Positions 285-39,649 of a DNA stretch of 40,343 nt are shown here, one piece after another. The notes beneath the pieces are model-generated. The model did no database searches. It saw only the letters and a program-made list of their open reading frames with translations, and was not told where the DNA came from. This DNA comes from an uncultured Asticcacaulis sp. (GTDB lineage Bacteria; Pseudomonadota; Alphaproteobacteria; Caulobacterales; Caulobacteraceae), in the NCBI GenBank assembly GCA_936940865.1, contig CAKZJB010000159.1:1-40343 (forward strand), in the 5' to 3' direction. The stretch's first letter is position 1. Every line of letters begins with the position of its first letter. A program made the translations under genes and the position numbers.

Positions 285-2885
285 TCAGGCGAGATGGATC
301 AGGATGTTGCCGACATGGTCGACCTTGCCGGTGCAGCCGGCCTCGATCAGCGTGGTGGAGTCCATCTCTACGACGATCGCGGGGCCCGGGATGACGTCGC
401 CGGCGCGCAGGCGCGAGCGCTCGTAGATCACCGCCGGCACCATCGCACCGTCGGCCCAGAGCTCATGGTCACGGATCTTCGCGGCGGACGGATCGCCATT
501 GCCCTGTTCGAGCGGCGGCGCCGGCAGATCGAGCGCAGGGCCCATCGCCACGGCGCGCAGGTTCACCAACTCGTGGGCGCTGTCCATGTTGAAGGTGAAC
601 AGGCGCTTGTGCTCCGTATCGAAGCGGTCGGTCACGCCCTTCAGGCCGTCGCGGCGCAGCACCTCGGCATCGATCGACAGCGGCACTTCGAAGGCCTGGC
701 CCGCATAGCGGACGTCGACTTCGAACTGACTGGTGATCTCGGAGTCGGGCACGCCATCCGACTTGAGCTCGGCGCGGGTCTGCTCGGCCATCTCGTCGAG
801 AATGGCGATCAGTTCCTCGGCCTTGGTGTTGGTGGCGAGGCGCGAGAAGCTGCGCGCGGTTTCGGTGCGCATCTGGGTGGTCGCATCGCCGAGCGCGCAC
901 AGCACGCCCGGGCTGACCGGCGAGACGGCGGGCCAGCTGCCCATCAGTCGCGCGACCGCGTTGACGTGGAGCGGACCGGCGCCGCCGAAGCCCATCAGTG
1001 CGAAATCGCGCGGGTCATAGCCCTGCTGGACCGAGATCATGCGCAGCGCGCCGAACATATTCTCGTTGACGATGTCGATGATGCCGCGCGCGGCTTCCAT
1101 CAGGCCGATGCCGAGCGCATCGGCGATCGTCTGTACCGCCTTCTTCGCGCCCTCGCGATCCAGCTTGAAGGTTCCGCCGAGCAGCGCCTCGGGCAGATAG
1201 CCAAGCACGACATTGGCATCGGTGACGGTCGGCAACGTACCGCCCTTGCCATAGGCGACCGGGCCGGGGACCGCGCCCGCAGACTGCGGGCCGACGCGCA
1301 GCGCTTTGGTCAGTTCGGGCACATAGGCGATCGAGCCGCCGCCTGCGCCGACCGTCTTGACGTCGAGCGCCGAGGCGCGAACCGACAGGTGGCCGACCTC
1401 CGTGGTGCGCTGGCGGCGCGCCTCGAGATTTTCGATCAGCGCTACGTCAGTCGAGGTGCCGCCGACGTCGAGCGTCAGGATATTCTTGATGCCGGCGTTG
1501 CGGCCGACCCATATCGCCCCGGTGACGCCGCCTGCAGGGCCCGACATCAGGATGTTGACCGGATGCTCCTCGGCCTTCTGCGCGGACATCAAGCCGCCGT
1601 CCGAGCGGAGCAGCGACAGCTTGCCGGCCATGCCCGCCGAGGCGAGCTTGTTGCGCAGATTGGAAACATATTTGCCCACCACCGGACGGACCGAGGCGTT
1701 GGCGACGGTCGTCAGGGTGCGCTCATATTCCTGCATTTCGGGCAGGACTTCGTGGCTCAGCGATACCGGAACGCCGGGTAGAACTTCGGCCGCCAATTCG
1801 CCGACGCGCTTCTCGTGCGCACCGTTGAGATAGGCGTTGATCAAGCTGACCGTGATCGCCTCGACGCCCTGCGCCTTCAGGAATTCGAGCTGGGCGCGGA
1901 TGTCGTCGTCGTCGATCGGACCGAGATCGACTGTTGCCGCCTGGCCGGCCTGGGCGGCGGTCAGGGTTACGGTCTGGCGATACCAGACGATGCCGTCGAA
2001 GCTTTTCAGCGCCGGAATGCCGCTGGTTTCCCAATCGCCCTGCGGGACCATCGTCGGCCAGGCGCCGTCGGCGAACGACGGGCCCGACCACTGCGACAGG
2101 TTGCGGAAATCGGGATCATGCTCGCGCCACCATGTGTCCCGCACCTGGTCCCACTTCGCCAGCGCGGCTTTCGGGTCCGTCCGGTATAGATCCTCGACCT
2201 GCAAGGTTTCCCGCATCCCGGCGACCGGATCGAGGCCCTGGCGGCTGATCCAGACCTGCGCGGCGGTGCCGCCCCACGATGCGTGGATCATGCCCTGCGG
2301 AACGTGCAACGTGTCGGCCAGTTGCCGCGCCATGAAGTAGCAGACGGCCGAGGTATCGCCGGCCGTCTCCGGCGACGACACCTGCCAGCCGGTCGCCTTG
2401 GCGAAACCCGTCACCGGCACCGGCTGCGAATTGCGCGGCACGTTGAGGATGCGCAGCTGCGGATCGTAGGCGCCCGCCGCATTCGTCGCCGCCTTGAGCG
2501 GAAACTCCATGTTCGACTGACCGGAACACAGCCAGACGTCGCCGATCAGGATATCGGTCAGGGTCTGGCTGTGGCCGGCGGAATCGCGAAAGGCCAGGGT
2601 GTAGGGGCCGCCCGCGCCCTGCGGCGGCAGGTTCAGCGAAAACGCGCCGGACGCGTCGGCCCGGCCGCTGGCGTTCGCCACCACCTTGTTGGATGCGGAC
2701 AAGACAAGATCGACCGTCGCATTGGCCGCGGCACGCCCCCATAGGGCCACCGGCTTGTCCCGTTGCAGCACCGCGTGATCAGTGAAGACAGGGGCCAGCC
2801 CGGCCCCGTCTTGCGCGCAGGCGCCCGTGACGCCTGCCAGAGTGACCAGGCCGGTTGCAAGGCCTGCCGCAATCTTGGTTTTCAT
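285..2885 (-). CDS. In-frame chimera: N-terminal half of a SASA-type acetylesterase joined to the C-terminal two thirds of hydantoinase A
   Basis: One open frame of 866 codons starts at an ATG preceded by AAGGACG, 11 nt after the fucosidase stop. Residues 1-25 are a signal peptide. Residues 30 to about 322 match a sialate-O-acetylesterase (SASA, carbohydrate acetylesterase) protein: the nucleophile block CSGQSNMEF has Ser124, followed by the HASWGGT block and the start of the jelly-roll motif LGPIDD. At about residues 323-328 the frame switches to hydantoinase A: SLSHEVLPEMQEYERT, then LLRSDGGLMSA, SGPAGGVTGA and LDVGGTSTDVAL, through to the usual HyuA C-terminus. The esterase lacks its C-terminal half, including the region that normally supplies the catalytic His. 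HyuA lacks roughly its first 150-170 residues, which hold part of the nucleotide-binding fold. Neither half should therefore work. Most likely this is an assembly chimera or a recombination at a short stretch encoding P-I-D-D-D-D. Confidence 0.85.
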   Translation of the reverse strand: MKTKIAAGLATGLVTLAGVTGACAQDGAGLAPVFTDHAVLQRDKPVALWGRAAANATVDLVLSASNKVVANASGRADASGAFSLNLPPQGAGGPYTLAFRDSAGHSQTLTDILIGDVWLCSGQSNMEFPLKAATNAAGAYDPQLRILNVPRNSQPVPVTGFAKATGWQVSSPETAGDTSAVCYFMARQLADTLHVPQGMIHASWGGTAAQVWISRQGLDPVAGMRETLQVEDLYRTDPKAALAKWDQVRDTWWREHDPDFRNLSQWSGPSFADGAWPTMVPQGDWETSGIPALKSFDGIVWYRQTVTLTAAQAGQAATVDLGPIDDDDIRAQLEFLKAQGVEAITVSLINAYLNGAHEKRVGELAAEVLPGVPVSLSHEVLPEMQEYERTLTTVANASVRPVVGKYVSNLRNKLASAGMAGKLSLLRSDGGLMSAQKAEEHPVNILMSGPAGGVTGAIWVGRNAGIKNILTLDVGGTSTDVALIENLEARRQRTTEVGHLSVRASALDVKTVGAGGGSIAYVPELTKALRVGPQSAGAVPGPVAYGKGGTLPTVTDANVVLGYLPEALLGGTFKLDREGAKKAVQTIADALGIGLMEAARGIIDIVNENMFGALRMISVQQGYDPRDFALMGFGGAGPLHVNAVARLMGSWPAVSPVSPGVLCALGDATTQMRTETARSFSRLATNTKAEELIAILDEMAEQTRAELKSDGVPDSEITSQFEVDVRYAGQAFEVPLSIDAEVLRRDGLKGVTDRFDTEHKRLFTFNMDSAHELVNLRAVAMGPALDLPAPPLEQGNGDPSAAKIRDHELWADGAMVPAVIYERSRLRAGDVIPGPAIVVEMDSTTLIEAGCTGKVDHVGNILIHLA
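1902..1925. other. Chimera junction between acetylesterase and hydantoinase A coding sequence
   Basis: On the minus strand the codons change from a SASA-family jelly-roll strand (Q-A-A-T-V-D-L-G-P-I-D-D) to a HyuA helix (D-D-I-R-A-Q-L-E-F-L-K). Both families naturally carry an acidic P-[IL]-D-[DE]-[DE]-D stretch at this point, encoded here by a GAC-rich run. A short shared sequence of this kind could join two unrelated reads or two genomic loci without breaking the frame. The exact base cannot be fixed because the shared motif is ambiguous. Confidence 0.7.
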
Positions 2886-2896: not shown

Positions 2897-4480
2897 TTAG
2901 GAAATCTTGAACGCGCTGGCGTGGCGGGTCGGCAGCTCTGCCGGCAGGTCGATGACCAGCGCCTGGTCGGTCTGGCGGAAGGTGAGCGGCTTTTGCCATC
3001 CCAGTAGCGTCACGCGCTTGACCGGCCGCTTTTGATGGCCGGCAGCCCGGCCGAGCGAGGTGATGGCGACGCTCTGTTTCGGCAGCCCCAGCGTGATGGC
3101 ATAGAGGGTATCGCCCTTTGTGGTGAAGCGGATGTCCCTGGCCGTATAGGCCGCGTTTTCCTGGAAGGCCCCGGTTGCCGTCTCGGTCGGCCCTTCGCCG
3201 AACACCGTCCACGGCCGCGTGCCGTGAATGGCCTCTGCATTGACCTTCATCCACGCCGCAAGTTCGTCGAGCAGGGTCTGCGATTCCGGCGGCAGGCTGC
3301 CGTCGGCGTAGAGCACGACGTTGAGCAGAAGGTTGCCGTTTTTGCTGACGATATCGGACAGCATGTAGATGACGTCCGGCGCGGTCTTGTAGGTAAAATT
3401 GTCGCTGTAGAACCAGTCGCCGTTAGAGGTGTCGGTCTGCCACGGCAAGGGATTGATACCTTTCAGCACGCCGCGCTCGACGTCCTGCACGCACATGGCG
3501 CGGTCGAATTCGCCGGAGCCGAAATCCTTGCAATTATAGACGGCGTCCGTGCTCTGACGGCCCATGCGGCTGTTGTACAGGTGGGCCAGGAGCGAGCGCC
3601 CGACGACGCCGAACGGCAGGCCGCCGTCGGAATAGAGCAGGTCCGGCTGGTAGCTGTCGACCAGATCGCGGATGCGGTTGAACCAGATTTGATGGTACTT
3701 CGGATCGTGCGTGTACCAGGTGTCGGCGCCGCCGCGATAAGGCTCGTCGTGCTTCGGGTGATAAAGGTCCGAGTAGGCCGGTTCGGCGCCGTCATAGGGC
3801 ACGCCGATCTGCGGCCAGAACTGGTCGTACTGGTGGCTGGGGTAGAACCAGTTATGGCTGGCGCCGAGGTGTTCCGACACGCCGAAACGCAGGCCACGCT
3901 TGGTGGCCGCCGCCTTCCAGGTGCCGACGACGTCGCGCTTCGGCCCCATGGCAACCGCGTTCCAGCGATGGTGCTTCGAGTTCCACAGGTCGAAATTGTC
4001 GTGGTGGACGCCCATGCTGACAAAGTACTTGGCGCCGGCGGCCACATACTTGTCCATCAGGGCTTCGGGATCCCACTTGTCCGCGGTCCACAGGGGAATG
4101 ATGTCCTTGTAGCCAACCTTGGACGGGTGACCGTAGTGCTTCAGGTGGTGGTCGTAGTGCGGATGCCCGGGAATATACATGTTGCGGGCGTACCAGTCAC
4201 CGGCGCGCGGCACCGCCTGCGGCCCCCAGTGCGCCCAGATGCCGAACTTGGCGTCGCGGAACCAGTCCGGCGCGCGGTAGGTTTTGAGCGAAGCCATGTC
4301 GGGATTGAAGGGCCCGGACGCCATCGGCAGGTCGTAGGCAGGCGCGGCAGGCGTCTTGGCGCAGGCGTCCGCTCCGCCGGCGGACGGGGAATCCTGCGCG
4401 AACGCTGCCACCGGCGCCGCCAGCCCGAAGGCTGCGGCAAGGGGAGCTCCCAACAGGTTGCGCTTGCTGATCGTGACCAT
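2897..4480 (-). CDS. GH29 alpha-L-fucosidase, exported
   Basis: The product is 527 aa. It hydrolyses terminal alpha-L-fucosyl residues, here probably those on xyloglucan galactosyl side chains, in the periplasm. Residues 1-29 form a signal peptide with a KR pair (SKRNLLGAPL) and an A-F-A-Q cleavage region. The catalytic domain follows: AKFGIWAHWGPQ near 77-88, SMGVHHDNFDLW near 155-166, and LLYSDGGLPFG near 281-291, where Asp285 is the predicted GH29 nucleophile. Length is normal for the family. I chose the ATG at 4480, 10 nt after AAGGA; a GTG at 4486 is also possible but sits only 4 nt from it. The gene lies downstream of GH74 and 11 nt upstream of the acetylesterase, so the three probably share a transcript. 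GH29 assignment is firm; the substrate is inferred from context. Confidence 0.9.
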   Translation of the reverse strand: MVTISKRNLLGAPLAAAFGLAAPVAAFAQDSPSAGGADACAKTPAAPAYDLPMASGPFNPDMASLKTYRAPDWFRDAKFGIWAHWGPQAVPRAGDWYARNMYIPGHPHYDHHLKHYGHPSKVGYKDIIPLWTADKWDPEALMDKYVAAGAKYFVSMGVHHDNFDLWNSKHHRWNAVAMGPKRDVVGTWKAAATKRGLRFGVSEHLGASHNWFYPSHQYDQFWPQIGVPYDGAEPAYSDLYHPKHDEPYRGGADTWYTHDPKYHQIWFNRIRDLVDSYQPDLLYSDGGLPFGVVGRSLLAHLYNSRMGRQSTDAVYNCKDFGSGEFDRAMCVQDVERGVLKGINPLPWQTDTSNGDWFYSDNFTYKTAPDVIYMLSDIVSKNGNLLLNVVLYADGSLPPESQTLLDELAAWMKVNAEAIHGTRPWTVFGEGPTETATGAFQENAAYTARDIRFTTKGDTLYAITLGLPKQSVAITSLGRAAGHQKRPVKRVTLLGWQKPLTFRQTDQALVIDLPAELPTRHASAFKIS

Positions 4481-4486
4481 ATCCAC

Positions 4487-4670
4487 AATATCCTTAAAAG
4501 TGTAATTTATCGCCGGAAAAACTGTTCGCCAAATGGGCGCGCCGGACGCAGGATCGGGTCAGGTTCCTCCGTCCGGCGCTTCCGCCGTCCCGCCCGAAGC
4601 ATCATGGCGCGACCTCGCCAGGGGTGAGGACGTCGGTTCGGGACGGCAGATTTCATGATCGTGGCCGGGG
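4487..4670 (-). other. Spacer between GH74 and GH29 genes with a long-range inverted repeat
   Basis: This 184-nt gap is longer than the other gaps inside the operon. It contains a 9-bp inverted repeat, GCCGTCCCG at 4584-4592 and CGGGACGGC at 4639-4647, with a 46-nt loop. It may form an RNA structure in the transcript; no T-run follows, so it is not a standard terminator. I see no gene in it. Confidence 0.4.
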
Positions 4671-6911
4671 TTATTTTGCCGGCGACGCCTCCTTTTGGTC
4701 GCTCGCCGGCTGTCCGATCGCCACGCCGCGCCCGGCGGTCGTGATATAGACAAGACCGAACTGGCGCGGGTCCCCGATTACCTCTCCGCCCCCACCGTAC
4801 TGGTGGGCGTCGTCATTGATCCGGACCCAGCTTTTCCCTTCGTCCGTGGACCGGAAAATGCCCCAGACGCCCTTGTAGCGTCCCCACATATAGACCGACG
4901 GATAGGTTTGCCCTTCGGCGGCCTTGCCGAAGCCGACCGCAACAGCCTCGCTGACATCCGCAATGGCTGCAAAGGGCGATTTCACATCCGGCGAATGGCC
5001 GAGGCCCTGCGGGGTAGGCACCCAGATATCCCGTACATGACCGGGCACGGCGCGGGGCAGGCCTGCCCCCCTCCAGGGTTCCAGAACGGGCAGTCCCTTC
5101 GCAAAGACCTTAAACGTCGCGCCGCCGTCCGCGCTGACCGACATCTCGCCGGTGCTGGTGTCGTAGACGTAGAAGACACCGTCGGCGGCACGGTCCGAGA
5201 ACAGCGGGAAGGTCCGTCCCTGAACCACGGGATAGCCACCGGACTTGAGCCAGGTCTTGCCACGGTCGCTGGAATAGTAGGCGTCTCCCTTGCCGGTCGC
5301 CCAGACCATTGCCGTGCCGTTGGCGGAAACGGCGATGCGGCCGGGCGAATACCAGCCCTTGTCGTCATGCAGGACGAGCGGCGGGCTGGACGGCATGTCG
5401 GCCCAGGTCTTGCCGTTGTCCAGCGACAGCAGGGCATGATTTTTGGCGGCGTCGCCATCGGCCATCCGCACGACCAGGCCGGGATTGAGCTCCGCAAAAT
5501 CGACGACACGGTTGCTGCCGGCGGCCGGATTGAAATAGCCGCCGTCCAGGGGCGGGGACCCTTCGAAATTCAGAAAACGAAAGCCGCCGACATCGCCGAC
5601 GGCGGCGATGAGGTGCGCCCCGGCCGGGGGGCTGGCCAGGTCCAGCGCCGCCGTCTCTTCGAAATTGTCGAGTTCGAACGTCCAGACGACAGGCTTCCGG
5701 CTGTCGGCGTCGGTCAGGTTTTCCGTCATCCATAAGCCGTCGCCGGTGCCGTAGATGGCCTCGTTCGGGTCGAACGGATTGATGTCGATATCCGACATCC
5801 AGTGTCCCATGGTGTCGGCCGGCCGGTTGGCCAGAATCCAGGGAATGTAAGGCGACTCGTGCTTCGACAGCGGGCGAAGGTCGGTCCAGTGCTGGCCGCC
5901 ATCGAGGCTGCGGAAGATGGTGTCGCCCCCCCACCAGCGGTCGAGCGTGGTGACGACCAGGGTCCCGGGCTTGCCGGCCGCGGCACTCACTCCCGCATAG
6001 CAGAAGGACGGACCGCCATTGCCCGGCTTCTGTGGCGTGATGTCTTTCCAGGTGCCGGCCGCCGGATCGAGCGCATGGACCGCGCCGTCCTTGCAGTTGT
6101 TGGGGCCGGACTGGTCGGCGAAGGTGACATAGAGGGCATTGCCGGAAGCGTCGAAGTCGGCGTGATGGGCCACGAACCCCCTGGGGGTGCCGGCCACGGC
6201 CTGCCAGCTGGCTCCGCCGTCGTGGCTCACATAAAGACTGTGCTCCTGGCTGTTCACACCGACATAGAGGGTCTTGGACGGCGCGCCCGGACTTGCCGAT
6301 CGCGGGTCGAACAGCACGAAGTTGACGTGCTTTTCCGGAAAGGACCCGACGGACGACCATGTCTTGGCGCCATCGCTGCTCTTGAGCAGCCCGTCATTGG
6401 ACGAGCCGAGAAACAGGATGTCGCCGCTGTTGGGATCGACCGCCAGGCGTTCGCCCGTGCCGCGGCCGTCTTCATTGCCGCCGAGCTTGACCGGCAGGTC
6501 GGCCTTGGCCCAGGTTGCACCGCGGTCGCCGGAACGCCACACTGTACCGGTCGACGCCCATTGGCTGGTGTAAAGACCTGTAGCGATATAGACCTTGTCT
6601 GGGTCCCGGGCGTCGAGCGCCAGGCTCAGGACGCCGAAGTCCTCGTTCCGGCCCATGCCGTCGAGCAGCGGAATCCATGTCCGGTCGGCGGCGTCCCAGC
6701 GATAGGCGCCGCCGACGTCGGTTCGCGCATAGAGCAGGCCCTTTTCCGTCGGATGGTAAACGAAACCATCGACAAAACCGCCCCCGCCCATCGGCGCGGT
6801 CGCCCACACATAGGGCTCGGCCTTGACCTTGGGCGCCTCAGCGCCGGCGGATGCGGCCATGAGCAACGCCGCCATGGCGGCCCCGGTGAGGCCCGTCACA
6901 ATCCTCTTCAT
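4671..6911 (-). CDS. GH74 xyloglucan endo-hydrolase (endo-xyloglucanase / oligoxyloglucanase)
   Basis: The product is 746 aa, starting at an ATG with GGAAGG 7 nt upstream. Residues 1-24 are a signal peptide. The rest is the double seven-bladed propeller of GH74, visible as many BNR/Asp-box repeats of the S-x-D-x-G-x-x-W type (RSGDRGATW, KSSDGAKTW, SHDGGASW, RSLDGGQHW, SLDNGKTW, SSDRGKTW, STDEGKSW). The two catalytic Asp residues of GH74 are present: Asp65 in ARTDVGGAYRW and Asp439 in VGDVGGFRF. GH74 enzymes cut the beta-1,4-glucan backbone of xyloglucan with inversion. The start lies 69 nt downstream of the halogenase 1 stop on the same strand, so it probably belongs to the receptor 1 transcript. 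This gene is the main evidence that xyloglucan is the substrate of the left locus. Confidence 0.93.
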   Translation of the reverse strand: MKRIVTGLTGAAMAALLMAASAGAEAPKVKAEPYVWATAPMGGGGFVDGFVYHPTEKGLLYARTDVGGAYRWDAADRTWIPLLDGMGRNEDFGVLSLALDARDPDKVYIATGLYTSQWASTGTVWRSGDRGATWAKADLPVKLGGNEDGRGTGERLAVDPNSGDILFLGSSNDGLLKSSDGAKTWSSVGSFPEKHVNFVLFDPRSASPGAPSKTLYVGVNSQEHSLYVSHDGGASWQAVAGTPRGFVAHHADFDASGNALYVTFADQSGPNNCKDGAVHALDPAAGTWKDITPQKPGNGGPSFCYAGVSAAAGKPGTLVVTTLDRWWGGDTIFRSLDGGQHWTDLRPLSKHESPYIPWILANRPADTMGHWMSDIDINPFDPNEAIYGTGDGLWMTENLTDADSRKPVVWTFELDNFEETAALDLASPPAGAHLIAAVGDVGGFRFLNFEGSPPLDGGYFNPAAGSNRVVDFAELNPGLVVRMADGDAAKNHALLSLDNGKTWADMPSSPPLVLHDDKGWYSPGRIAVSANGTAMVWATGKGDAYYSSDRGKTWLKSGGYPVVQGRTFPLFSDRAADGVFYVYDTSTGEMSVSADGGATFKVFAKGLPVLEPWRGAGLPRAVPGHVRDIWVPTPQGLGHSPDVKSPFAAIADVSEAVAVGFGKAAEGQTYPSVYMWGRYKGVWGIFRSTDEGKSWVRINDDAHQYGGGGEVIGDPRQFGLVYITTAGRGVAIGQPASDQKEASPAK

Positions 6912-6980
6912 GTCGTCGCCTTCCCTTGTCTTTTCTATAATCGGCGCACGTTCCCGGGACGCGCGCCTGGACTGCGCCGC

Positions 6981-8471
6981 TTAAGTCGCCTTGCAGTACT
7001 GATTGATGAAATCCTGATGCGAAGGGACCGCTTGCGCCGAGCGCACGATCTCCTCGCGACGCAATTCCATACCCTTGCGGATCTGCTCCAACGGATAGAG
7101 ATCAGCCGCTATGGCGTAGCGCTCTGGAACGAGGCCGTTGCCCAACAGGATCGCGAGCCAACTCGGCTCCATATAGGATTCAAGATCACCCAGCGGGATT
7201 TGGCCGGTGGCCTTCCAGACCTCAAGCTTGTGCCGCAGGCTGTCAGGTATCTCGATGTCGCGGCATGCCGCCCACAATGGCTCGGGCCGGCGGGAGAGGT
7301 AGTAGTGCGCAATGATGAAGTCGCGTATGCGCTCGATCTCGGTGGTGGTTATCCGGTTATATTCGTCGCGCAGAACGGGGTTGATGGTCCCTTGGGGGAA
7401 GAATTGAAGCAACTTCAACACTCCCTGGATAATCAATTGTATGCCGGTTGACTCCAGCGGTTCGAGAAAGCTGGAGGCAAAGCCGATCCCAATACAATTG
7501 CGGTTCCAGAACAGCTTGCGATGCCCGGATGTAAAGCGGAACACCCTCGGCTCCGCCAACAGTTCGCCCTCGACACTGCCCAGGAGTGCTTGGCGCGCCG
7601 CGTCGTCGCTCCAGAAATCCGAATTATAGACCATGCCATTGCCACTGCGATGCTGCAGGGGAATGGTCCAGCGCCAGCCCCCGGCGTGCGCGGTGGATCG
7701 CGTAAACGGCATGGGCGCGCCCACACGTTTCGATGGGACCGCCATGGCGCTGTTGCACAGCAACCAGCGCGACCAGTCAACAAATGGCGTGTCCAACGCC
7801 TTTCCCAGCAATTCGGACGCGAAACCCGTGCAATCCAGGAACAGGTCGCCGGGAACCGCAACGCCGTTGGCAAGATGGATGGCGGTAATATTGCCGGAGG
7901 CGCCATCCAGATCGAAGTGCGTCATCTTGCCTTCGATACGCTGCACGCCTAACCCGGTCGCCACGTCCCGCAGATAGCGGGCGTACAATGCCGCGTCAAA
8001 ATGATAGGCATGGTGATAGCGCGAACTCAGCTCATCGCTGATCGCAAAATTGTTGTTCTTGGCCACGGCGTAGGCGAACGAGTAGTCGTCGATCGGGCGC
8101 TCGTCGCCCGCTTGCCGCAGTCTCAGCCAGTAGTGCTGTGGCGATACTCCGTCAACCTGGTGACCATAGTCGCTGAACGCGTGGAAATGCCGGTTTCCGG
8201 CAACGCCCCAGTCGCAAAATTCAATGCCGAGCTTGAACGTGCCCTGGGTGCGGCGAACAAAGTCATATTCGTCAATGCCCAGCAAAGCGTTGCAGAGCGT
8301 CAGCAACGGGACCGTCGCCTCCCCGACGCCGATGATGCCGATTTCCTCGGATTCAACCAGAGTGATGCGGATTTGACTGCGATTCGTCTTCCTGGCCAGC
8401 AGAGCGGCCGCGATCCACCCCGCCGCGCCGCCGCCCAGTATGACGATTTGCTGTTGCTGTACGCTGTTCAT
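6981..8471 (-). CDS. Flavin-dependent tryptophan-halogenase-like protein 1
   Basis: The product is 496 aa. It has the FAD-binding GGGAAGW motif (13-19), a GxGE-type motif (IGVGEAT), the active-site Lys80 in GTFKLGIEF, the halogenase signature GWRWTIP (265-271) and Glu340 in EPLESTGI. The last two correspond to the W-x-W-x-I motif and Glu346 of PrnA, and Lys80 to PrnA Lys79. The enzyme should make hypohalous acid from FADH2, O2 and halide and use a Lys to halogenate an aromatic substrate. The natural substrate of this receptor-linked group is unknown. I chose the ATG at 8471 (GCGAGG 7 nt upstream) over the upstream Met codons. It lies between receptor 1 and GH74 on one strand. No flavin reductase gene is nearby. 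Confidence 0.92.
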   Translation of the reverse strand: MNSVQQQQIVILGGGAAGWIAAALLARKTNRSQIRITLVESEEIGIIGVGEATVPLLTLCNALLGIDEYDFVRRTQGTFKLGIEFCDWGVAGNRHFHAFSDYGHQVDGVSPQHYWLRLRQAGDERPIDDYSFAYAVAKNNNFAISDELSSRYHHAYHFDAALYARYLRDVATGLGVQRIEGKMTHFDLDGASGNITAIHLANGVAVPGDLFLDCTGFASELLGKALDTPFVDWSRWLLCNSAMAVPSKRVGAPMPFTRSTAHAGGWRWTIPLQHRSGNGMVYNSDFWSDDAARQALLGSVEGELLAEPRVFRFTSGHRKLFWNRNCIGIGFASSFLEPLESTGIQLIIQGVLKLLQFFPQGTINPVLRDEYNRITTTEIERIRDFIIAHYYLSRRPEPLWAACRDIEIPDSLRHKLEVWKATGQIPLGDLESYMEPSWLAILLGNGLVPERYAIAADLYPLEQIRKGMELRREEIVRSAQAVPSHQDFINQYCKAT

Positions 8472-8611
8472 AAACATACCTCGCCATGAACACATCCGAC
8501 GCCATGTCTGGCGAACGGGTTTCAGGCCTACGCGGGGGTTGGATGTCGGTCAAGTCGCACAAGCCGCCCGCGATAAGCGACCGGCAGGATACGACGCCGC
8601 GACTGTATTTG

Positions 8612-8647
8612 AAAAAAGGAAGGGCGCTTCTAATGAAGCGCCCTTCC
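8612..8647 (-). terminator. Rho-independent terminator after TonB receptor 1
   Basis: A perfect 13-bp inverted repeat (GGAAGGGCGCTTC at 8618-8630, GAAGCGCCCTTCC at 8635-8647) has a 4-nt loop and is followed on the minus strand by six T residues (8612-8617). It lies 12 nt past the receptor stop and about 140 nt before halogenase 1. It should end most receptor transcripts and let only some read through to the halogenase and hydrolase genes. Confidence 0.9.
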
Positions 8648-8659
8648 CCGTTCAGACCG

Positions 8660-11600
8660 TTAGAAGCGCGCCCGCACGGTAATATCGTAGCGCTGATCGC
8701 TGACGTTAAAGTCGTACGGCTCGAACACGCCCGGCACCGGCTCCTGAAGCGTTTTCGACTTCGTGTTGAGAAGGTTGTTCGCGCTGAAGGAAACGGAAAC
8801 CTTGTCGTTCACGCTGTAGTCGAAGCCCATATCCAGGTAACCGGCCGCGGCCGTGTAGGCGGGGACCATGTTGTACACCGGGAACGAATGGGTGCTGTCA
8901 AAGTTGGTGGGGCTGGTGTTGAGGGTGTAGGGGTTGCCGCCGCTCGTCGCATAGGACAGCGGATTGACGTTGGTCGACATCAGCGCCTTGTCGCGCCAGT
9001 TATACGCCAGACGGACATTGACCGCCTTATAGCTGTACAGCAACTGAATGTTGTAGGCCCACTTCGACAACCCTGCGTAGGGGAGCTTGGGGTAGGTCTG
9101 CGGCACCGTGCCGTCCGGGTTGAGGCCCGGCAGGGACCCATTGGCGGGCGGGGGAGTCACCACGCTGTTGGCCTGCTGGGCAGGGTTTCGGCTGTCGATA
9201 TAGGTCACGTTGCCGTCAATGCCAAACCCGCGAAGCCAGCCTGGGAGCGTATCGAAGAAGGTGCGGCCACCGAGCTCAAAGCCCTTGATGGTAGCCGTTT
9301 GCTCCGACGTTTTGTTCTGCAGATAGAGCCACGGAAGATTGAGGGTAGTCGGCGTCCCCGGATCCGGATCCCCTGCCTTGGCCGGAGCCTTAACACCATT
9401 GGGATATTCCAGCGCCGGAATGGGCAGATTGTTCTGGATGAACGAATAGAATATCGGGGCATCCTCAATCTGCTTGCCGAACAGGTCGAGATACAGGAAG
9501 CTGGATGACGTCGGATAGTATTCGAACGAAATATCCTGACTGTTGATCATGGTCGGCTTCATATTCGCGCCCCCGCCCTGAACGGAAACACCTGTGAGAA
9601 CCCCGGGGGCCTGCGGATTTCCGCCAGCAAGCGTTCTGGCCGTAATCGAACCACCCGCGCGGATGTCATTGAGATTCGGCAAAGACGTCGACCTCGACGC
9701 CGCAGCGCGAATGATGAACTTGCTGCTTACGTCGAACTTGATGTTGAATGACGGCAGGATACGCGAGTAGCTGTAGTCCCGGGTCTGCATGCTGTAACCC
9801 GAAGCGAACGCATAGAGCGTCGGGAACGTCACGTTCGCGTTCGGATTAGCACTGAGCTGCTGCTGCGCGTTGAAGTACGCTATGCTGTCCGCCGTGGTTA
9901 GAGCAAAGTTCTGGCCATTCGGCGTGTAGAGCAGACCGTCCCCATGCAGGGTTTCGGCGACATCACGAACGCCGAAATTACCCGAGAATGGCGGAATGAA
10001 GCCGATAGCATCGTGCGCGAACTTGAACTCGATATAGACGGACCGGGTGTCGATGGTGCTGACGGTCTTGTTCAGCCCCTGATCGATATACTTCGTCCAG
10101 TAGTCAGCTGCCGTCCCGTTGGCGATCTGCCCGTTATAGGTCTGGAGCAAATGGTACCAGTCATAACTTTGCAGCAGCGATTGGCTCGGGACGTACATCT
10201 GGGCCGGAATAACGGCCTTGCCGCCAAAGAAGTTCTTGAAGGTGGCGACTTCATAATCCGACGACGGGACGTTTGTGTTCGTCAGATATTGAATATTCCC
10301 AATGCCATAGGTCGGGTCGTTGGGGTGAGCCCCCCACGGATTGGCCAGCCACGATACGCTGAGCGGCGCGTACCAGGTCCCAGCGAAGTCGTCCTTTTCA
10401 GTGCGGTTGGCGGCACGCGCGCCAAAGGTGACGGTGCGCAGGAAGCCATCATCGCTGACGTGGTATTCAACGTCGAAGTGGGTGGCGAGCATCGTCCCCT
10501 TATTATTGGGTTTATGATAGTTCATAGAACTCAGATACGCCGCGCTCTTATCCAGCAGGCCGGCGGTGGAAAGACCGGACAGCTTCGGCAGAGCCCCCGT
10601 CAGGTCGATGTCCATCGAGTCGACCAGCTGGCTGCTCTGGGAAAGGCCAGCGCCAAACTGCTCGCCCTTCATGCTGGACGTGACAGATTGCACACCGCCA
10701 CGCACCGTCATCCGATCACTGGGCCTCCACAGGAAGCTCTGCGAAATGTCCAGTGTGGAGCTTTTGCTGTGCGAAACCCCAGCCCCGCCGCCCGGGTTAA
10801 ACGTGCCATGAGGGCCACACTGCACCAGGACGGGCGCATTCGGCGACCAATCCCACTGAAGCGACGACGCGGGACTGCCAAAGACGCCACCGCAATCAAT
10901 CATATATTGCTGGGGGAACCAGCCGCCGTTCGCCGCCTTGAAACTGTCGCTCGCCGTCGTGTTCGTCCAATCCACCGAATTTCCCGTGGACCCGACCGTA
11001 AGGCTACCCCGACGGAGGCCGCCATTGGCATCATACTCAACCGGAGTGCCGATCTTGGGCATGACGGCGGATGCCGCCGAAGGGCTCGACCCCACCGAAC
11101 CGTTGTTCGACCAGCTGTCGTCGTTATATTGCGAATAGAACACCGTGTTGGTAAACGTCAGATTATCCGACGGCTTCCACTGGATGGCCTGATAGGCGCC
11201 ATAGCGTTGACGGTTACTGACACTGTTGCTCCAGTTGAACGAGCTGGGCACAAAAGCCAGATGATCGGCGCGCGTGGAGGTCGGGGCATATTCGGCGAAC
11301 ATGGCGCCGACAGCCAGGTCACTGCTCTGCTGGTGGAGGCCGCTGTAGGCGAAATCCCACAATACGCCGACTTCACCTATGTTGGTATCGAAACGCTTTG
11401 AGAACAACGCGGAAATGCGAGGCGACCCCTTGGCAACCTGGGTGCCGTAGCTGCCGCCGACCGTGAGGGCAACCTGCGTCGTCTTGAAATCGAAGGGCAG
11501 ACGGGTGCGAAGATCGATCGATGACGCCCCGCCTTCAATGAGGTCAGCGCGCGACGCCTTGTAGACATCGACACCAGCCATCAATTCGGGCGTGACTTCG

Positions 11601-12049
11601 TTCCAGCTGATGGCGCTCGCGCCGTTGGCGCTGAACAGCTGCTGGCCGTTAAGCGTACTCGAATTGAAGGGAAGACCGCGCACGGAGATGCCCGACCCTT
11701 CGATCTGGAACGCCGTGCTGCCTCCATTGGTCCCACCAAAACGGGATATGGTCACACCCGAAACGCGTTGAAGCACTTCGGTGATCGAATTGTCGGGCAG
11801 CTTGCCGGCTTCATCGGCGACGACAGAGTCGACGATCGTGTCCGAATTCTTCTTGATCTCGATGGCGGTCCTCAGCGCCTTGCGGCGCGCCGTGACGATG
11901 AGAACCGAATTGTCGGCCGCCTTGGCGTCCGTCGCGTCGGCGCCTCCCTTGTTCGCCGCCGCGTCCTGGGCCATGGCCGAAACGGCCGTCGCCATGACGA
12001 TTGCAGAAACGCCCGCGCTCAATATGAGCTTGCGTGTGATGTTATTCAT
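8660..12049 (-). CDS. TonB-dependent receptor 1 (Xanthomonas/Caulobacter carbohydrate type)
   Basis: The product is 1129 aa. The start is the ATG at 12049 with AGAGGAA upstream, which begins a signal peptide (MNNITRKLILSAG, cleaved after A-M-A). A TonB-box-like SVLIVTAR follows, then the plug: NSDTIVDSVVADEAGKLPD, EVLQRVSGVTISR and an IEGSGISVRGLP region. The rest is a beta-barrel ending in Phe (VRARF), the usual outer-membrane assembly signal. It belongs to the long receptors that import oligosaccharides. Being first in line before halogenase 1, GH74, GH29 and an esterase, it probably takes up xyloglucan oligosaccharides. It resembles receptor 3 (30578-33625) in the plug, with matching NSDxxVDSxVADxxGKLPD and PELMAGVD blocks, more than it resembles receptor 2. 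Confidence 0.93.
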   Translation of the reverse strand: MNNITRKLILSAGVSAIVMATAVSAMAQDAAANKGGADATDAKAADNSVLIVTARRKALRTAIEIKKNSDTIVDSVVADEAGKLPDNSITEVLQRVSGVTISRFGGTNGGSTAFQIEGSGISVRGLPFNSSTLNGQQLFSANGASAISWNEVTPELMAGVDVYKASRADLIEGGASSIDLRTRLPFDFKTTQVALTVGGSYGTQVAKGSPRISALFSKRFDTNIGEVGVLWDFAYSGLHQQSSDLAVGAMFAEYAPTSTRADHLAFVPSSFNWSNSVSNRQRYGAYQAIQWKPSDNLTFTNTVFYSQYNDDSWSNNGSVGSSPSAASAVMPKIGTPVEYDANGGLRRGSLTVGSTGNSVDWTNTTASDSFKAANGGWFPQQYMIDCGGVFGSPASSLQWDWSPNAPVLVQCGPHGTFNPGGGAGVSHSKSSTLDISQSFLWRPSDRMTVRGGVQSVTSSMKGEQFGAGLSQSSQLVDSMDIDLTGALPKLSGLSTAGLLDKSAAYLSSMNYHKPNNKGTMLATHFDVEYHVSDDGFLRTVTFGARAANRTEKDDFAGTWYAPLSVSWLANPWGAHPNDPTYGIGNIQYLTNTNVPSSDYEVATFKNFFGGKAVIPAQMYVPSQSLLQSYDWYHLLQTYNGQIANGTAADYWTKYIDQGLNKTVSTIDTRSVYIEFKFAHDAIGFIPPFSGNFGVRDVAETLHGDGLLYTPNGQNFALTTADSIAYFNAQQQLSANPNANVTFPTLYAFASGYSMQTRDYSYSRILPSFNIKFDVSSKFIIRAAASRSTSLPNLNDIRAGGSITARTLAGGNPQAPGVLTGVSVQGGGANMKPTMINSQDISFEYYPTSSSFLYLDLFGKQIEDAPIFYSFIQNNLPIPALEYPNGVKAPAKAGDPDPGTPTTLNLPWLYLQNKTSEQTATIKGFELGGRTFFDTLPGWLRGFGIDGNVTYIDSRNPAQQANSVVTPPPANGSLPGLNPDGTVPQTYPKLPYAGLSKWAYNIQLLYSYKAVNVRLAYNWRDKALMSTNVNPLSYATSGGNPYTLNTSPTNFDSTHSFPVYNMVPAYTAAAGYLDMGFDYSVNDKVSVSFSANNLLNTKSKTLQEPVPGVFEPYDFNVSDQRYDITVRARF

Positions 12050-12146
12050 TACTGTTTCCTCTGGTGCCGAAACTGACGCCATCGCCGCTTCGATTTTCTG
12101 CCCCGGCGACACGCGTGCCGCCATTTGTAAGACGATTATGTAAGCG

Positions 12147-12187
12147 TTGAATTTTTGTTCAAGGATAAAATTGAATTTTGCATTCAA
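12147..12187. promoter_or_regulatory. Two tandem dyads upstream of TonB receptor 1
   Basis: TTGAA-N6-TTCAA at 12147-12162 and TTGAAT-N5-ATTCAA at 12171-12187 lie about 100-140 bp before the receptor start, with centres about 24-25 bp apart. The spacing and symmetry suit a dimeric regulator such as an IclR protein, but no binder is known. Confidence 0.4.
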
Positions 12188-12239
12188 AACAGCCGGCTGT
12201 TGCGATGTTGCCACATATGAAAGTCAGTGTCACATGAGC

Positions 12240-12274
12240 AAAAAAAAGCCCCCTTGCGCTGCGGGAGCAAGGGG
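12240..12274 (-). terminator. Rho-independent terminator of the candidate small RNA
   Basis: An 8-bp GC-rich stem (arms 12250-12257 and 12267-12274) with a 9-nt loop is followed on the minus strand by G, C and eight T residues. It lies within the upstream region of receptor 1 with no protein gene ahead of it. Confidence 0.85.
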
Positions 12275-12384
12275 AAAGGCTGGGAGGATAGGATGGTTCG
12301 GGAGAACGAGACCCTCCATTTAGCGCATAAGCTCGCTCGAAACGCGCCGCAGCAGGTCAGGGAACCCTCAGGCCGCAAGCTTAT
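12240..12384 (-). ncRNA. Candidate small RNA (about 145 nt) upstream of TonB receptor 1
   Basis: Read on the minus strand, a sigma-70-like promoter (TTGATT at 12413-12418, 16-nt spacer, TATTGT at 12391-12396) is followed at the expected start point by a structured stretch. The 5' arm ATAAGCTTGC (12375-12384) pairs with GCGAGCTTAT (12327-12336) with one G-U. A second hairpin GTTC-TCCC-GAAC (12296-12307) presents a C-rich loop. A single-stranded CCTCCC (12282-12287) could pair with ribosome-binding sites. The last element is a strong terminator, CCCCTTGC/GCAAGGGG at 12250-12274, with eight T residues at 12240-12247. No gene lies upstream that this terminator could serve. An alternative is that it is an attenuated leader of receptor 1, whose start is about 190 nt further on. 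Confidence 0.5.
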
Positions 12385-12390
12385 TGTCCT

Positions 12391-12418
12391 ACAATACGAC
12401 ATCCCGCGCGCAAATCAA
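12391..12418 (-). promoter_or_regulatory. Predicted sigma-70-type promoter of the candidate small RNA
   Basis: On the minus strand a -35-like TTGATT (12413-12418) and a -10-like TATTGT (12391-12396) are 16 nt apart. The predicted start near 12384 coincides with the first base of the 5' stem. Each hexamer matches the consensus at four of six bases. Confidence 0.4.
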
Positions 12419-12646: not shown

Positions 12647-13444
12647 ATGGCGAGACCGAAATCAGACGAGACCGACGACGCGGAAGACGCCGGCCTGAAA
12701 TATCGCGCGCCGGCACTCGAAAAAGGCCTCGACATCGTCGAACTGCTGGCCGCCTCCCCCCGTCCCATGCCGCCCAAGCTGATCTCCGAGAAGCTCGGCA
12801 AGTCGGTCAGCGAGCTTTTCCGCATGGTCCAGGTCCTGGAAAACCGCGGCTACGTCGCCATGGCGGAAAACCAGAGCGGTTATGAGCTGACCAACAAGCT
12901 GTTTTCGCTCGGCATGGCGCGGGGCATCAGCAAGAACCTGCTCGATCATGCCGTCCCGGCCATGCGGGCCCTGAGCGAAGACATCCTTCAGGCCTGCCAC
13001 ATCGTCGTGGCGTCCGACGACCAGGTCGTGGTCGTCGGCCAGATGGACGCGCCGGCCAATCCCAGCTTCCATATCCGCGTCGGCTTCCGCCAGAACATCG
13101 TCGACGCGACGTCAGGCGCCCTCCTCTACGCCTTCCAGAAGCCAAAGGTGCGCGACGCCTGGCGCAATGCTCTGAAGCCGGCCGTTTCCGCCGACGAATG
13201 GCAAAAATTCGAGACCCTGGCGGAAACGGCCCTGGCCAAGGGCTACCTGGTGGCGCAAAGCGCCTACACCGAGAGCATCACCGACATCTCCAGCCCCGTC
13301 TTCAGCGACCGGGGCCTCATCGCCGCCCTGACCATCCCCTATATCAAGAACCGGTTGAGCGTCAGCGTAGAGGAGTGCGCCAAATCCCTGGTCGAGGCGG
13401 CCGGCGCCCTGTCGAAGGCCCTGGGCGCCCCCCCCGAATCGTAA
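12647..13444 (+). CDS. IclR-family transcriptional regulator 1
   Basis: The product is 265 aa. An N-terminal winged helix (about 20-85) includes APALEKGLDIVELLA and the recognition-helix stretch ISEKLGKSVSELFRMVQVLE. The C-terminal effector domain (about 95-260) contains CHIVVASDDQVVVVG, a V-G-F-R-Q segment and the late ITDISSPVFSDRG block typical of IclR proteins. These regulators bind as dimers or tetramers and respond to small organic acids or sugars. It diverges from receptor 1, so it is the natural candidate regulator of that locus. It is closest in design to IclR 3 (38518-39306): both share the APALEKG and S-E-[LI]-F-R motifs. The ribosome-binding site is weak, so the start is not certain. 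Confidence 0.9.
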   Translation: MARPKSDETDDAEDAGLKYRAPALEKGLDIVELLAASPRPMPPKLISEKLGKSVSELFRMVQVLENRGYVAMAENQSGYELTNKLFSLGMARGISKNLLDHAVPAMRALSEDILQACHIVVASDDQVVVVGQMDAPANPSFHIRVGFRQNIVDATSGALLYAFQKPKVRDAWRNALKPAVSADEWQKFETLAETALAKGYLVAQSAYTESITDISSPVFSDRGLIAALTIPYIKNRLSVSVEECAKSLVEAAGALSKALGAPPES

Positions 13445-19829: not shown

Positions 19830-20015
19830 ATACCAACGGCGATTGGCTTCGACTCGATGACCGCCCGCAAGGGCGCCAATCTTTTCTTACCCTGTCCGCC
19901 GCCGCCTTGTCCTCAAGGAGCGAAGCGTCAGGACAACGCTTCATGGTCCTCAAAGAGCGAAGCGTTAGGACAACGCTTCATGGTCCTCAAAGAGCGAAGC
20001 GTCAGGACAACGCTT
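19830..20015. repeat. Intergenic palindromic repeat, copy 1, with three 37-bp units
   Basis: The element starts with ATACCAACGGCGATTGG and GCAAGGGCGCCAATCTTTTC, then a CCGCCGCCTTG block. Three tandem units follow: 19910-19946, 19947-19983 and 19984-20015 (the last cut short). Each unit contains GAAGCGT(T/C)-AGGAC-AACGCTTC, a near-perfect hairpin, and begins with TCCTCAA(A/G)(A/G)AG. The last unit ends exactly inside the halogenase 2 stop codon. It fills the convergent gap between the ABC permease and halogenase 2 and could serve as a two-way terminator. Confidence 0.85.
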
Positions 20016-21499
20016 TAAAGCTTCGCCAGAAAATCCTCGTGGCTCGGCATGTAGTCGCAGCAATTCCTTATGGTCTGACGTGTTTCCGCCAGCCAGCGCT
20101 CCATGTCTTCCCGCTTCAGGCTGAGCGTCAGCGGATCCGGCGCGCGCGGCCTCAGGCCCTGCCCCCACATGACCGCCAGCCAGCTCGGCGTCCGGAACTG
20201 CTCGCCGCCGTCGGGCGGAATCCGTCCGCGGCTTTCGAACAGGCGGATGCGGTCGCTCAGGCGCTCCGGGACCTCCATGCCGGCGCAATACCGCCAGAAC
20301 GGCGAGTCGTCTCTCTGGGTGACATGGTAATGCAGGATCAGGAAATCCCGGATGTCTTCGTATTCCCCGACCATCTGGCCGTTGTAGGTCTTGATGTCGA
20401 TCGGATCGAAGCCCTTGTCGGGAAACAGGTACTGCAACCGCGTTATCGCGTTCTGGATCAGCATGATCGAGGTCGATTCCAGCGGCTCCAGAAAGCCCGC
20501 CGACAGACCGACCGCGACGCAGTTCTTCTCCCAGAAACGCTCACGCCGGCCGGTCGTGAAACGCAGCAGGCGCGGCTCGGCCAGCGCCTTGCCGTCGAGA
20601 TTGTCGGTGAGTTGCCGTAAGGCCGCCGAGTCGCTTGTGAAGGCGCTCGAAAAGACATGGCCGTTGCCGTCGCGATGTTGCAGCGGGATACGCCACTGCC
20701 ACCCGGCCGTCAGCGCCTGCGATCGTGTAAAGGGCGGCGGCGCGCCGTCCCGCGCCGTCGGTACGGCCCAGGCGCGGTCGCACGGCAGCCAGTGCGACCA
20801 GTCGACGAAGCCGACCCCCAGCGCCTCCCCCAGCAGCAGGGCGCGAAAGCCCGTGCAGTCGATGAACAGGTCCCCATCGACCGAGCGGCCGTCGTCGAGC
20901 GCAAGGCTGCGAATAAAACCGGCGTCGTCGAGCCGGACGTTGGCAATCCGGCCCTCGAGCCGCCGGACCCCGGCCTTTTCGGACAGCCCCCGCAGATATT
21001 GCGCATACAGCGAGGCATCGAACTGGAAGGCGTAGGCGATATCCGCCAGCGGCGAATTGGAGCGCGACGGCCGCATGAATTTGCCGTGCAGCGAGGCCAG
21101 GGTCTGGAGGTTGTAGGCGTCCAGCGGCTCGTCGCCGTTTTCCAGGACTTGCCGCAGCCAGACGGCATGAAACGGCAGAGCCCCGTATTCGCGGCCGTGC
21201 GGCCCGAAAGAGTGATGATAGCGGTTGCCCAGGTGGCCCCAGTCGCTGAATTCGATCCCCAGCTTGAAGGTTCCGCGCGTGAAACGGACGAAGTCGTTTT
21301 CATCTATACCGATGAAGCGGTTGTAGACGTGGATGTAGGGCGTCGTCGCCTCGCCGACGCCGACCGTTCCGATCTCCTCGCTTTCGACCAGAACGATCTC
21401 GTCGAAATTGTCGCGCATAACCCGGGAAAACCACGCGGCAGTCATCCAGCCCGCGGTTCCGCCGCCGGCAATGACCACCTTTCTGACAGGCTCGACCAT
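20015..21499 (-). CDS. Flavin-dependent tryptophan-halogenase-like protein 2
   Basis: The product is 494 aa. It carries GGGTAGW (12-18) for FAD, IGTVGVGEAT, the active-site Lys79 in GTFKLGIEF, the signature GWQWRIP and EPLESTS with the PrnA Glu346 equivalent. It differs from halogenases 1 and 3 in having Ser instead of Gly/Ala after PLEST. I chose the Met at 21499 because MVEPVRKVVIAGGG begins right at the first beta-strand; an in-frame ATG at 21544 would add 15 residues of low-complexity sequence. It follows TonB receptor 2 by 139 nt with a hairpin between. The 3' end abuts a palindromic repeat whose last base is part of the stop codon. As with its paralogues, the substrate is unknown and no flavin reductase is near. 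Confidence 0.92.
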   Translation of the reverse strand: MVEPVRKVVIAGGGTAGWMTAAWFSRVMRDNFDEIVLVESEEIGTVGVGEATTPYIHVYNRFIGIDENDFVRFTRGTFKLGIEFSDWGHLGNRYHHSFGPHGREYGALPFHAVWLRQVLENGDEPLDAYNLQTLASLHGKFMRPSRSNSPLADIAYAFQFDASLYAQYLRGLSEKAGVRRLEGRIANVRLDDAGFIRSLALDDGRSVDGDLFIDCTGFRALLLGEALGVGFVDWSHWLPCDRAWAVPTARDGAPPPFTRSQALTAGWQWRIPLQHRDGNGHVFSSAFTSDSAALRQLTDNLDGKALAEPRLLRFTTGRRERFWEKNCVAVGLSAGFLEPLESTSIMLIQNAITRLQYLFPDKGFDPIDIKTYNGQMVGEYEDIRDFLILHYHVTQRDDSPFWRYCAGMEVPERLSDRIRLFESRGRIPPDGGEQFRTPSWLAVMWGQGLRPRAPDPLTLSLKREDMERWLAETRQTIRNCCDYMPSHEDFLAKL

Positions 21500-21595
21500 T
21501 GCAATCTCATGAAAAGGTGGCCCGGCGCCAGGACGCCGGGCCATGAGTTAACCACTGCCGGAGGAAGAAAGTTGGCAGCGGCACGAGCTTGGGGT

Positions 21596-21629
21596 GATGC
21601 GGGGCGCCAGGGAAAAAACGCCCCGCATC
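21596..21629. terminator. Strong hairpin between TonB receptor 2 and halogenase 2
   Basis: A perfect 11-bp stem (GATGCGGGGCG at 21596-21606, CGCCCCGCATC at 21619-21629) lies 9 nt past the receptor stop, with a 12-nt loop that holds the only A/T run. No T-run follows the stem on the minus strand, so it may stabilise the receptor mRNA 3' end or slow the polymerase rather than end transcription outright. Confidence 0.6.
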
Positions 21630-21638
21630 GCAAGGCCG

Positions 21639-24600
21639 TCAGAAGTTGGCCTTGATGGTGAAGGTGTAGGTCCGGCCGTCGTAGTCGATCCAGCGAACCA
21701 GGTTGTGGTCGTTCTCGTACTCGTAGCGCAGCGAGTTGGTCAGGTTGTAACCGTCGAACGACAGGGTGATGTTGTCGGTCACGTTATAGGACGCCGACAG
21801 GTCGAGCTGGCCGCGTGCGCGCACCGACCGGGCGCTGCCGGTATAGGTGCCGTTGGCGTTGAGCGGATAGTCGGAGCGCCAGTTGTAGACGGCGCGGATG
21901 CCGAACTTCGACGTTTCGTAATAGCCGATCAGGTTGACCACGTGCTTGGAGATGCCCGGGAACGGCGCGATCGCCGGGCTCTTCGACGTCGTATAGGCGT
22001 AGTTGAAGTCGCCGCCGAAGTTCTTCCAGAAGCCGGGCAGGAAATCCAGGTTCTGCTGGACGTTGAACTCCAGGCCGTTGACATAGGTCGGCTTGTCGAG
22101 GTTGTAGGAGCCGTGGGCGTTGACGTAGACCGTCTTGGTCGAGGTGCTGAGACCGGTCGCGACGCAGTTGGTACCGTTCCAGTTCAGCGCGCCGTAGCCC
22201 CAGTTCGAGCCGCTGGCCGGACACAGGATGGCCGGATCGCTGGTGCCGGTGATGCGGCCCGTGATCGTCTTCTTGAACCAGGCCAGCGAGATCACGCCGT
22301 TGGGACGGTTATACCATTCCAGCGACAGGTCGTAGGAGTCGGCCAGGTACGGGTGCAGGCCTGCATTGCCGAGCGCGACGGTGGCGTTGTAGATCTGCAT
22401 GGATGGCGTCGAGGCGCTGCCGTCCAGCAGGGGCTGGCCGAACTGCGACACGGGCGAGAACTGGCGCGCCTGCGGACGGACATAGGTCTTGTAGTAGGCG
22501 CCGCGCAGCACCAGATCGTCGCGTACGTCAGCGACGAAGATCGCCGACGGCAGCCAGTAGTGGTACTTGTTCTTCAGCGTATGCCACGAGAAGTTCGACA
22601 GTGCGCCCACGCCGTCGGCGAACGGCGTGACCTGATCCAGCGTATCGGTCGTTTCCTCGGTGCCTTCATAGCGCAGGCCGACATTGCCGCGGACGCGGTG
22701 GCCGGCGAGGCTGGTCTCGTACTTGGCCTGCAGATAGGCTTCGGTCAGATCGTTGTCGTCGGTATAGTTGTAGTTGGCGAAGGCGCCGTCGGCATAGAGG
22801 ATGTTGAAGCCCACCGCCGACAAGCCACCGCCGTTATAGACGGTCACCGGCGTCACGGCCGAAATGAACTTTTCGGCATCGAGCACTTGCCAGTTCTTGG
22901 AAATCGCGGCCTTGCCGTCCATGAAGTCGTTGACCGACGGCGCGGTGATCAGCATGTCCGAGGTCAGGGCCGACAACTTGGCGCCGTAGGCCATGTTGCG
23001 GAAGCCATGAGAAACAAAGTGGTTCTGTTCGAGGCGGAAGCCGCCCTGGACGCTGGTGATGGGGCCCCACTTGACGAAGTGCTCGACATCCAGCTGCGCC
23101 GAGTTCACGTGGTTGACCGCGAAGCTTTCGGAACCGGAGATGTTGAGGTTGTAGGCGCCGTCGGCCGTGTACCAGTTTTCCGGATCGCTGTTGGACCAGC
23201 TCGTCCAGCTATGCATCAGCGTATTTTGCGGCGTCGGCGTGACGCTGTACGAGAAGTCGTCGAGATTGCCGAGGCCGGTATTGAACAGCGCCACGGTGCC
23301 GTTGCCGGCCGTCGTCGGGTTGGTCTGGAGATCGAGTTCGGTTTCGACCGATGCGTTCGAGCCCTTGGACATGGCCAGGACGCCCGCAACGCGCCAGTCC
23401 TCAGTGTGCCAGTCGAGATTCGAGACGAAACCTTCGGACTGCTGGTGCTGCGAATAGAGGCGGGTCGACGACTTCGCCGGGAAGTTCGTCATGGTGATGT
23501 CGGAATAGAGGTAGCGGCCGTCCGAGGTCTGGATCGGCGTGCCGTGCGGCGTGACGATGCCCGCGCCGTCCCACATCGAATTGATGAGGAAGTACTGCGT
23601 CGTCTTCGGCAGGTTGCGGTCGGTATAGTAGCCGACCAGACCGATCTTGGTGTTGTCGTTCGGCTTCCATTCCAGGCCGCCGGACGCCGACCAGAGGTCG
23701 CCGACGTTCATGCGGGTATATTGACGCAGGGCGCTGTCGAACCAGGCGCCCGACGTCCCCTTCGAACCGGTCGTGCTGTTGATATAGGGCGCGGCCTGCG
23801 ACTGGGTCATGCCCATGGCGTCGGCCAGGCTGCGGCAGAAGCTGCCGCCCGTGCAGGCCGTCGGCGAGAAGTACTGGCCGTAGGCCGACGAAAACTGGGA
23901 CGGCGTCAGGCCGGTCATGGCCGTGTCGAGCGCGCTGTACGAATTGAAGCGCAGCGTGTCGCGGCGGAAATTCTCGTGCTTGTAGGCCAGGGTGCCGAAC
24001 ACCGCGAAGTCCGGCGAGAAGTGCTTGTTGTAGCCGATCGTGTAGGCCGGCGAGGTCAGGTTGCCGAGCGAGTTGTTTTCGATCGCGACCTTGGCGAAGC
24101 CGCCGTCCTTGCGCGACAGAGCCGGCGCGATCTGCATGTCGACATTGCCCGACAGGCCACCCGACTGGGCATTGGCCATCGGCGACTTCTCAACGACAAA
24201 GGCGCTGAAGATGTCCGAGTTGAACGCGCCCAAAGGACCGCTCGAATCGTCGGACAGCGAGGGCGGCTCGGCGAAGGCTTGGCCGTTCAGCGTCGTACGC
24301 GCATAGGAACCCGGCATGCCGCGGACGTTGATCGTCGCGTTGCGGCCTTCGGCTTCGCGGTTGATCTGGACGCCGGGAATGCGCTGCAGCGCCTCACCGA
24401 CATTCAGGTCGGGAAAGCGGCCGAGGCCGTCCGACGAAATCCCGTCAGTGATTTCAATGTTGTTCTTCTTGGCCCTGACGGCGTCAGCGTAGCTTTTCTT
24501 GAAGCCCGTCACCACGACGACGTCGCTGCTGGCGGCCTGGGGCGCCGGCCCGTCGGCGGCGTAAGCCACGCCGGCCATGCTCCCCATCAGCATGGATGCA

Positions 24601-33625: not shown

Positions 33626-33727
33626 GATTGGCTGGCCGGGGCACTCCCTGTCTCCGGCCGGCCTTGCGATGCGGGCCGATCCTTGCCGCGTCGCTGTCCA
33701 AGTCCGTACAAGGATCATCCCTGACTT

Positions 33728-33762
33728 GTCCTCCCGGCCGTCCGTGCCGGGAGGACTCTTTT
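33728..33762 (+). terminator. Rho-independent terminator between TonB receptor 3 and halogenase 3
   Basis: A perfect 10-bp stem (GTCCTCCCGG at 33728-33737, CCGGGAGGAC at 33747-33756) with a 9-nt loop is followed by TCTTTT (33757-33762). It lies about 100 nt past the receptor stop and 20 nt before the halogenase start, so the halogenase depends on read-through. A weaker GGCCGGGG/CTCCGGCC hairpin lies before it near 33634-33660. Confidence 0.85.
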
Positions 33763-39636: not shown

Positions 39637-39649
39637 GTATAAACCGCCA

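Follow-up and report, generated by a model that had tools for sequence, protein, structure and literature searches.

Does the open frame at positions 285 to 2885, which begins as an acetylesterase and ends as a hydantoinase subunit, represent a real hybrid gene, or was it created when the contig was put together? The window, i.e. the whole stretch of DNA analysed here (40,343 bases), is the entire contig C159 of the draft genome G000, which comprises 245 contigs and 5.07 Mb (completeness 99.98, contamination 3.12). A single open frame of 866 aa runs on the minus strand from an ATG at 2885 to a stop at 285 with no stop in between, as a preliminary description had reported, and within it the esterase half passes into hydantoinase subunit A (HyuA) at about 1908-1921 (Table 1). 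Ser124, which had been named as the nucleophile, is indeed the serine of a GQSNM motif, and the N-terminus agrees by eye with the proposed signal peptide. Both partners are cut, as had been stated; however, the loss from HyuA is about 133-138 residues and not 150-170.

Table 1 Features of the hybrid frame, its surroundings and dispersed repeats
Feature	Position	Strand	Basis
N-terminal half of CE20/SASA-type acetylesterase, residues 1-326	1908..2885	-	62-69% identity to same-genus esterases
Junction zone	1908..1921	-	14/14 bases as in closest hyuA among the matches listed; 11/14 as in G003 esterase
Hydantoinase/oxoprolinase subunit A without first ~133-138 residues	285..1921	-	Pfam and HyuA comparisons
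HyuB, first 90 residues, cut by contig end	1..272	-	Comparison with HyuB
Second break in the foreign tail	677..711		L055 identity 94.5% (678-1921) versus 77.3% (1-677)
Dispersed repeats	19830-19983, 38345-38431, 39424-39642; G000:C180 9221-9444		

The HyuA-like reading of the hybrid protein starts at about residue 321. Pfam retained only positions 128-175 of the 176 of Hydant_A_N, at residues 321-368, followed by nearly whole Hydantoinase_A and Hydant_A_C domains, so that the N-terminal domain of HyuA is incomplete while the core and C-terminal parts are almost entire. In this the protein resembles known Hydantoinase A members (PF01968; N-methylhydantoinase, 7hk5; 5-oxoprolinase, 6yra), and the start of HyuB follows as in a plasmid relative; it differs from them in the missing N-terminal residues and in that the gene was not found in 24 other genomes of the genus. 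In the esterase half SASA was not called, and a Big_6-like stretch of the hybrid scored 25.5 bits, below the cut-off of 27.6.

The same fusion was sought in other genomes, since its presence in relatives had been proposed as a sign that it is real. With the fused protein as query, matches were obtained in 48 of 61 genomes (own included). No match spanned the junction in the 60 relatives: all rows lay within residues 1-330 or started at residue 312 or later, except for a weak HyuA alignment (32%) in G047 that starts at residue 286. In a sample of the order (398 genomes, own included) a match at E 1e-120 was found in 21, and none of the 397 other genomes matched both halves when the top two candidates of each genome were compared at this limit. 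A 1035-aa open frame in G372 was considered as a second fusion and rejected, as it contains an ordinary 682-aa HyuA. A search of the own genome for another copy of the junction gave partial, weak matches but no match to the stretch in full. That the frame encodes a real, working fusion of esterase and hydantoinase, as its openness alone would suggest, can be given almost no credence: the C-terminal SGNH part with the DxH motif is absent, most of the N-terminal domain of HyuA is missing, one half appears by eye to be secreted whereas HyuA enzymes are cytosolic, and none of the 60 relatives or the 397 order genomes, the latter with two candidates scored for each, has such a protein.

Esterase sequence on two contigs

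About 326-328 of the roughly 658 residues of the esterase are retained in the window, and this half is 62-69% identical to the intact esterases of four genomes of the same genus (G003, G024, G021 and G018). When the G003 esterase, P0004 (658 aa), was searched against the genome under study, its residues 1-333 matched the window half and its residues 403-657 matched a separate piece on contig C180 with 76% identity. This piece (G000:C180:13447-14217) lies 2 bases from the edge of C180, which is 14,219 bases long. Both halves match the same gene in the four relatives at 62-76%, and when placed on the intact gene they are spaced by 210 nt in G003, G024 and G021 and by 211 nt in G018. The ends of C180 and C159 showed no overlap with another contig, with matches at chance level only.

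The search with P0004 also detected paralogues on contigs C226 and C10, and weakly on C195 and C18. That the C180 piece is part of a paralogue was rejected, because the two halves are no more than 31-46% identical to the intact, CE20-like copies on C226 and C10. The gene adjoining the esterase on C180 encodes a GH62-like enzyme (Pfam). The esterase and the GH62-like gene form one continuous alignment in three of the four relatives (G024, G021 and G018), and in G003 the GH62-like gene is present about 10 kb from the esterase. The simplest reading is that the esterase gene is intact and that a gap of about 210 nt in the assembly splits it; it would then encode a complete CE20-type acetylesterase in what resembles a hemicellulose (plant-polysaccharide) locus.

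P0004 aligns with PDB 7kmm (residues 32-656) and with 9h4u (residues 29-656), which we take, in part from chain names, to be the CE20 enzymes XacXaeA and Fl8CE20_II. Pfam placed SASA in the second half of P0004 and a Glyco_hydro_2_N match at residues 295-373, which gives the protein a GH2-like central stretch. According to PMC12313940, CE20 enzymes of this kind have an ancillary beta-sandwich inserted in the SGNH domain; the serine precedes this insert and the DxH motif follows it. The GQSNM serine in the window half, the GH2-like middle in P0004 and a DIH motif near the C-terminus in the C180 half would fit this order, with the two motifs sitting on two separate contigs. Unlike a CE20 enzyme, the window holds half of the protein only, ending midway through the inserted domain and lacking the C-terminal DxH part. 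This half is not expected to be active, since the join falls in the inserted domain (295-373 of P0004).

Source of the hydantoinase tail

The two sides of the frame differ in their relationships: the esterase is related to the same genus, whereas the closest HyuA among the matches listed is that of a Rhizorhabdus MAG (L055; 92% at the amino acid level). Over 544 codons, the hyuA of the window and that of L055 differ by 89 synonymous and 42 non-synonymous codon changes. The RecA of the genome is 97.5% identical to that of G003, 80.5% to that of a Caulobacter and 70.4-75.4% to those of eight other named genomes compared, including the Rhizorhabdus MAG (74.1%). At E 1e-50 HyuA was found in none of the 24 other genus genomes compared (with the own genome, 1 of 25), and HyuA proteins of 74-84% identity are present in other genera of the same family in the order sample. 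HyuA is foreign to the compared genus genomes but not to their family at large. Differing relationships of this kind would also follow from horizontal transfer, and relatives of HyuA were found on sphingomonad plasmids in a plasmid search.

The missing parts of both tail genes were also sought. Neither residues 1-133 of HyuA nor residues 91-625 of HyuB, whose reading starts at 272 and reaches the contig end after its first 90 residues, were found elsewhere in the assembly. When 11.6 kb around the L055 hyuA was compared with the genome, the 1.9 kb of the window was the only strong match, and the five further matches were short (38-284 bases, 71-87%).

G+C content showed no step at the junction. 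Comparison of codon use on the two sides, which had been proposed as a check, was only weakly informative because the native and foreign ranges overlap. The HyuA piece scored -0.005, near the bottom of the native range (mean 0.021, sd 0.012) and inside the foreign range (mean -0.017, sd 0.031); only 1 of 27 native genes scored clearly below it and one more was equal to three decimals. As the foreign set also included hyuA genes, which favours the foreign side, codon use was dropped as proof of a misjoin.

A second break was found inside the tail. Identity to L055 at the nucleotide level is 94.5% over 1921-678 and 77.3% over 677-1, and the change is abrupt; none of 1000 codon-block shuffles reached the observed contrast. 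Against 81 other hyuA loci the window drops mildly (mean 80.6 to 76.4%), and L055 drops still less (80.9 to 79.1%). The tail may have been put together from two sources, or natural recombination may have altered hyuA in the lineage of the window or of L055.

Taken together, the half esterase at the edge of C180, the failure to find the start of HyuA and the rest of HyuB in the assembly, the lack of this HyuA in the 24 other genus genomes compared and the lack of the fusion in the other genomes searched give good support to an artefact, and it is very probable that the fusion is a misjoin in a chimeric contig and not a real hybrid gene.

Junction word and route of the join

At the protein level, the common run reads ...VDLGPIDDDDIRAQLEF... 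in the window, ...IDLGPIDDSDTTWVNG... in an esterase relative and ...EVRPIDDDDIRAQLEF... in a HyuA relative, which agrees with the earlier claim of an acidic run common to both families. The esterase motif G-[PA]-[IV]-D-D-[SGVIA]-D was readable in 20 of 24 loci, the other 4 giving no pattern match, and the HyuA relatives hit by the pattern have P-[IL]-D-[DE]-x-[DE]. Going down from 1921, the window is identical to the L055 hyuA over 77 bases until the first mismatch; above 1921 it diverges from that gene and tracks the esterases, while agreement with the esterases fades below 1908. Within 1908-1921 all 14 bases equal the L055 hyuA and 11 of 14 equal the G003 esterase, counted by hand on the alignment; the native esterase bases here are unassembled. 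For a word to extend as far as 1901, residue 327 would have to be Asp, and none of the 20 readable esterase loci has Asp there. Any exact word common to both genes may be about 14 nt or less.

These data fit the following route. The assembly of an intact acetylesterase gene would have broken inside the gene, leaving its C-terminal part on C180 and its N-terminal part on C159, about 210 nt apart, and C159 would then have been wrongly extended into hyuA-hyuB DNA of another, sphingomonad-like bacterium. Because both genes encode P-I-D-D-x-D at the join point, they would carry a similar GAC-rich word, and this word is the presumed cause of the join, which probably took place in the assembler or during library making and not in the cell. 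The k of usual de Bruijn assemblers is larger than 14 nt. A word of at most 14 nt would be shorter than this, which casts doubt on a join by a shared k-mer alone; a library chimera, as a fair alternative, or some other route is as likely.

For metagenome assembly, PMC7299287 describes how chimeric contigs can arise from shared k-mers, and the GUNC paper (PMC8201837) names misassembly as one of their sources, though a relatively rare one. As in the cases treated there (PMC7299287, PMC8201837), two lineages lie in one contig and the true continuation lies at the end of another; in contrast to them, the join here is in frame and the common word may fall short of the usual k-mer length. Both sources deal with metagenome assemblies; the genome studied here may come from the binning of a metagenome or from an isolate with contamination.

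The shortness of the word also bears on a real recent insertion or illegitimate recombination, by which a sphingomonad-like hyuAB segment would have entered the esterase gene at a microhomology, with C180 as its far side. Short microhomology is also expected at the junctions of illegitimate recombination, and the 14-nt word suits it better than it suits an assembler k-mer; the intact HyuA frame with its excess of synonymous over non-synonymous differences from L055 looks like that of a recent arrival, and related genes are carried by sphingomonad plasmids. However, the HyuB rest and the neighbours of the closest HyuA listed were not found in the assembly, so that the insert would have to be cut immediately by gaps on both sides. 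Moreover, C180 stops inside the esterase and not in foreign DNA, and 210 nt of the esterase would also have to be deleted or unassembled. Such an insertion is improbable, and so is its more specific form, in which a relative of Caulobacter would very recently have captured sphingomonad-like hyuAB at a short microhomology in coding sequence, splitting the esterase and leaving an in-frame hybrid. Of the artefact and the recent recombination that the preliminary description had placed side by side, the former is thus favoured by the C180 half 210-211 nt away and by the absent hyuA start and HyuB remainder.

Under the misjoin reading, a hybrid gene whose frame stays open can result from a join at a short codon-repeat word, and an uninterrupted frame does not by itself prove that a fusion is real. 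Pending a decision from reads, positions 1-1921 of the window are best treated as foreign to the contig, with the esterase divided between C159 and C180.

Other genes and repeats on the contig

Short dispersed repeats of about 88-225 bases with 87-91% identity are shared between C159 and C180, and by their coordinates they lie between long ORFs. An alpha-L-fucosidase gene and a gene for a BNR-repeat protein (window 2904-6938) have a second copy at G000:C233 6653-14377, with 86% and 76% nucleotide identity, respectively, which may reflect a duplicated polysaccharide locus or a mixture of strains.

Three pairs of tryptophan-halogenase-like and TonB-receptor-like genes were found at 6981-12214, 20015-24743 and 30485-35300, lying among glycosidase genes (fucosidase, GH42, GH97 and melibiase), and an IclR-type regulator is encoded at 12647-13444. 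One halogenase, the named glycosidases and the IclR-type regulator were assigned by Pfam, and the remaining genes by sight of their translations. When positions 6900-12400 of the window were compared with plasmids, the matches listed had 60-80% identity and extended over no more than 24% of the query.
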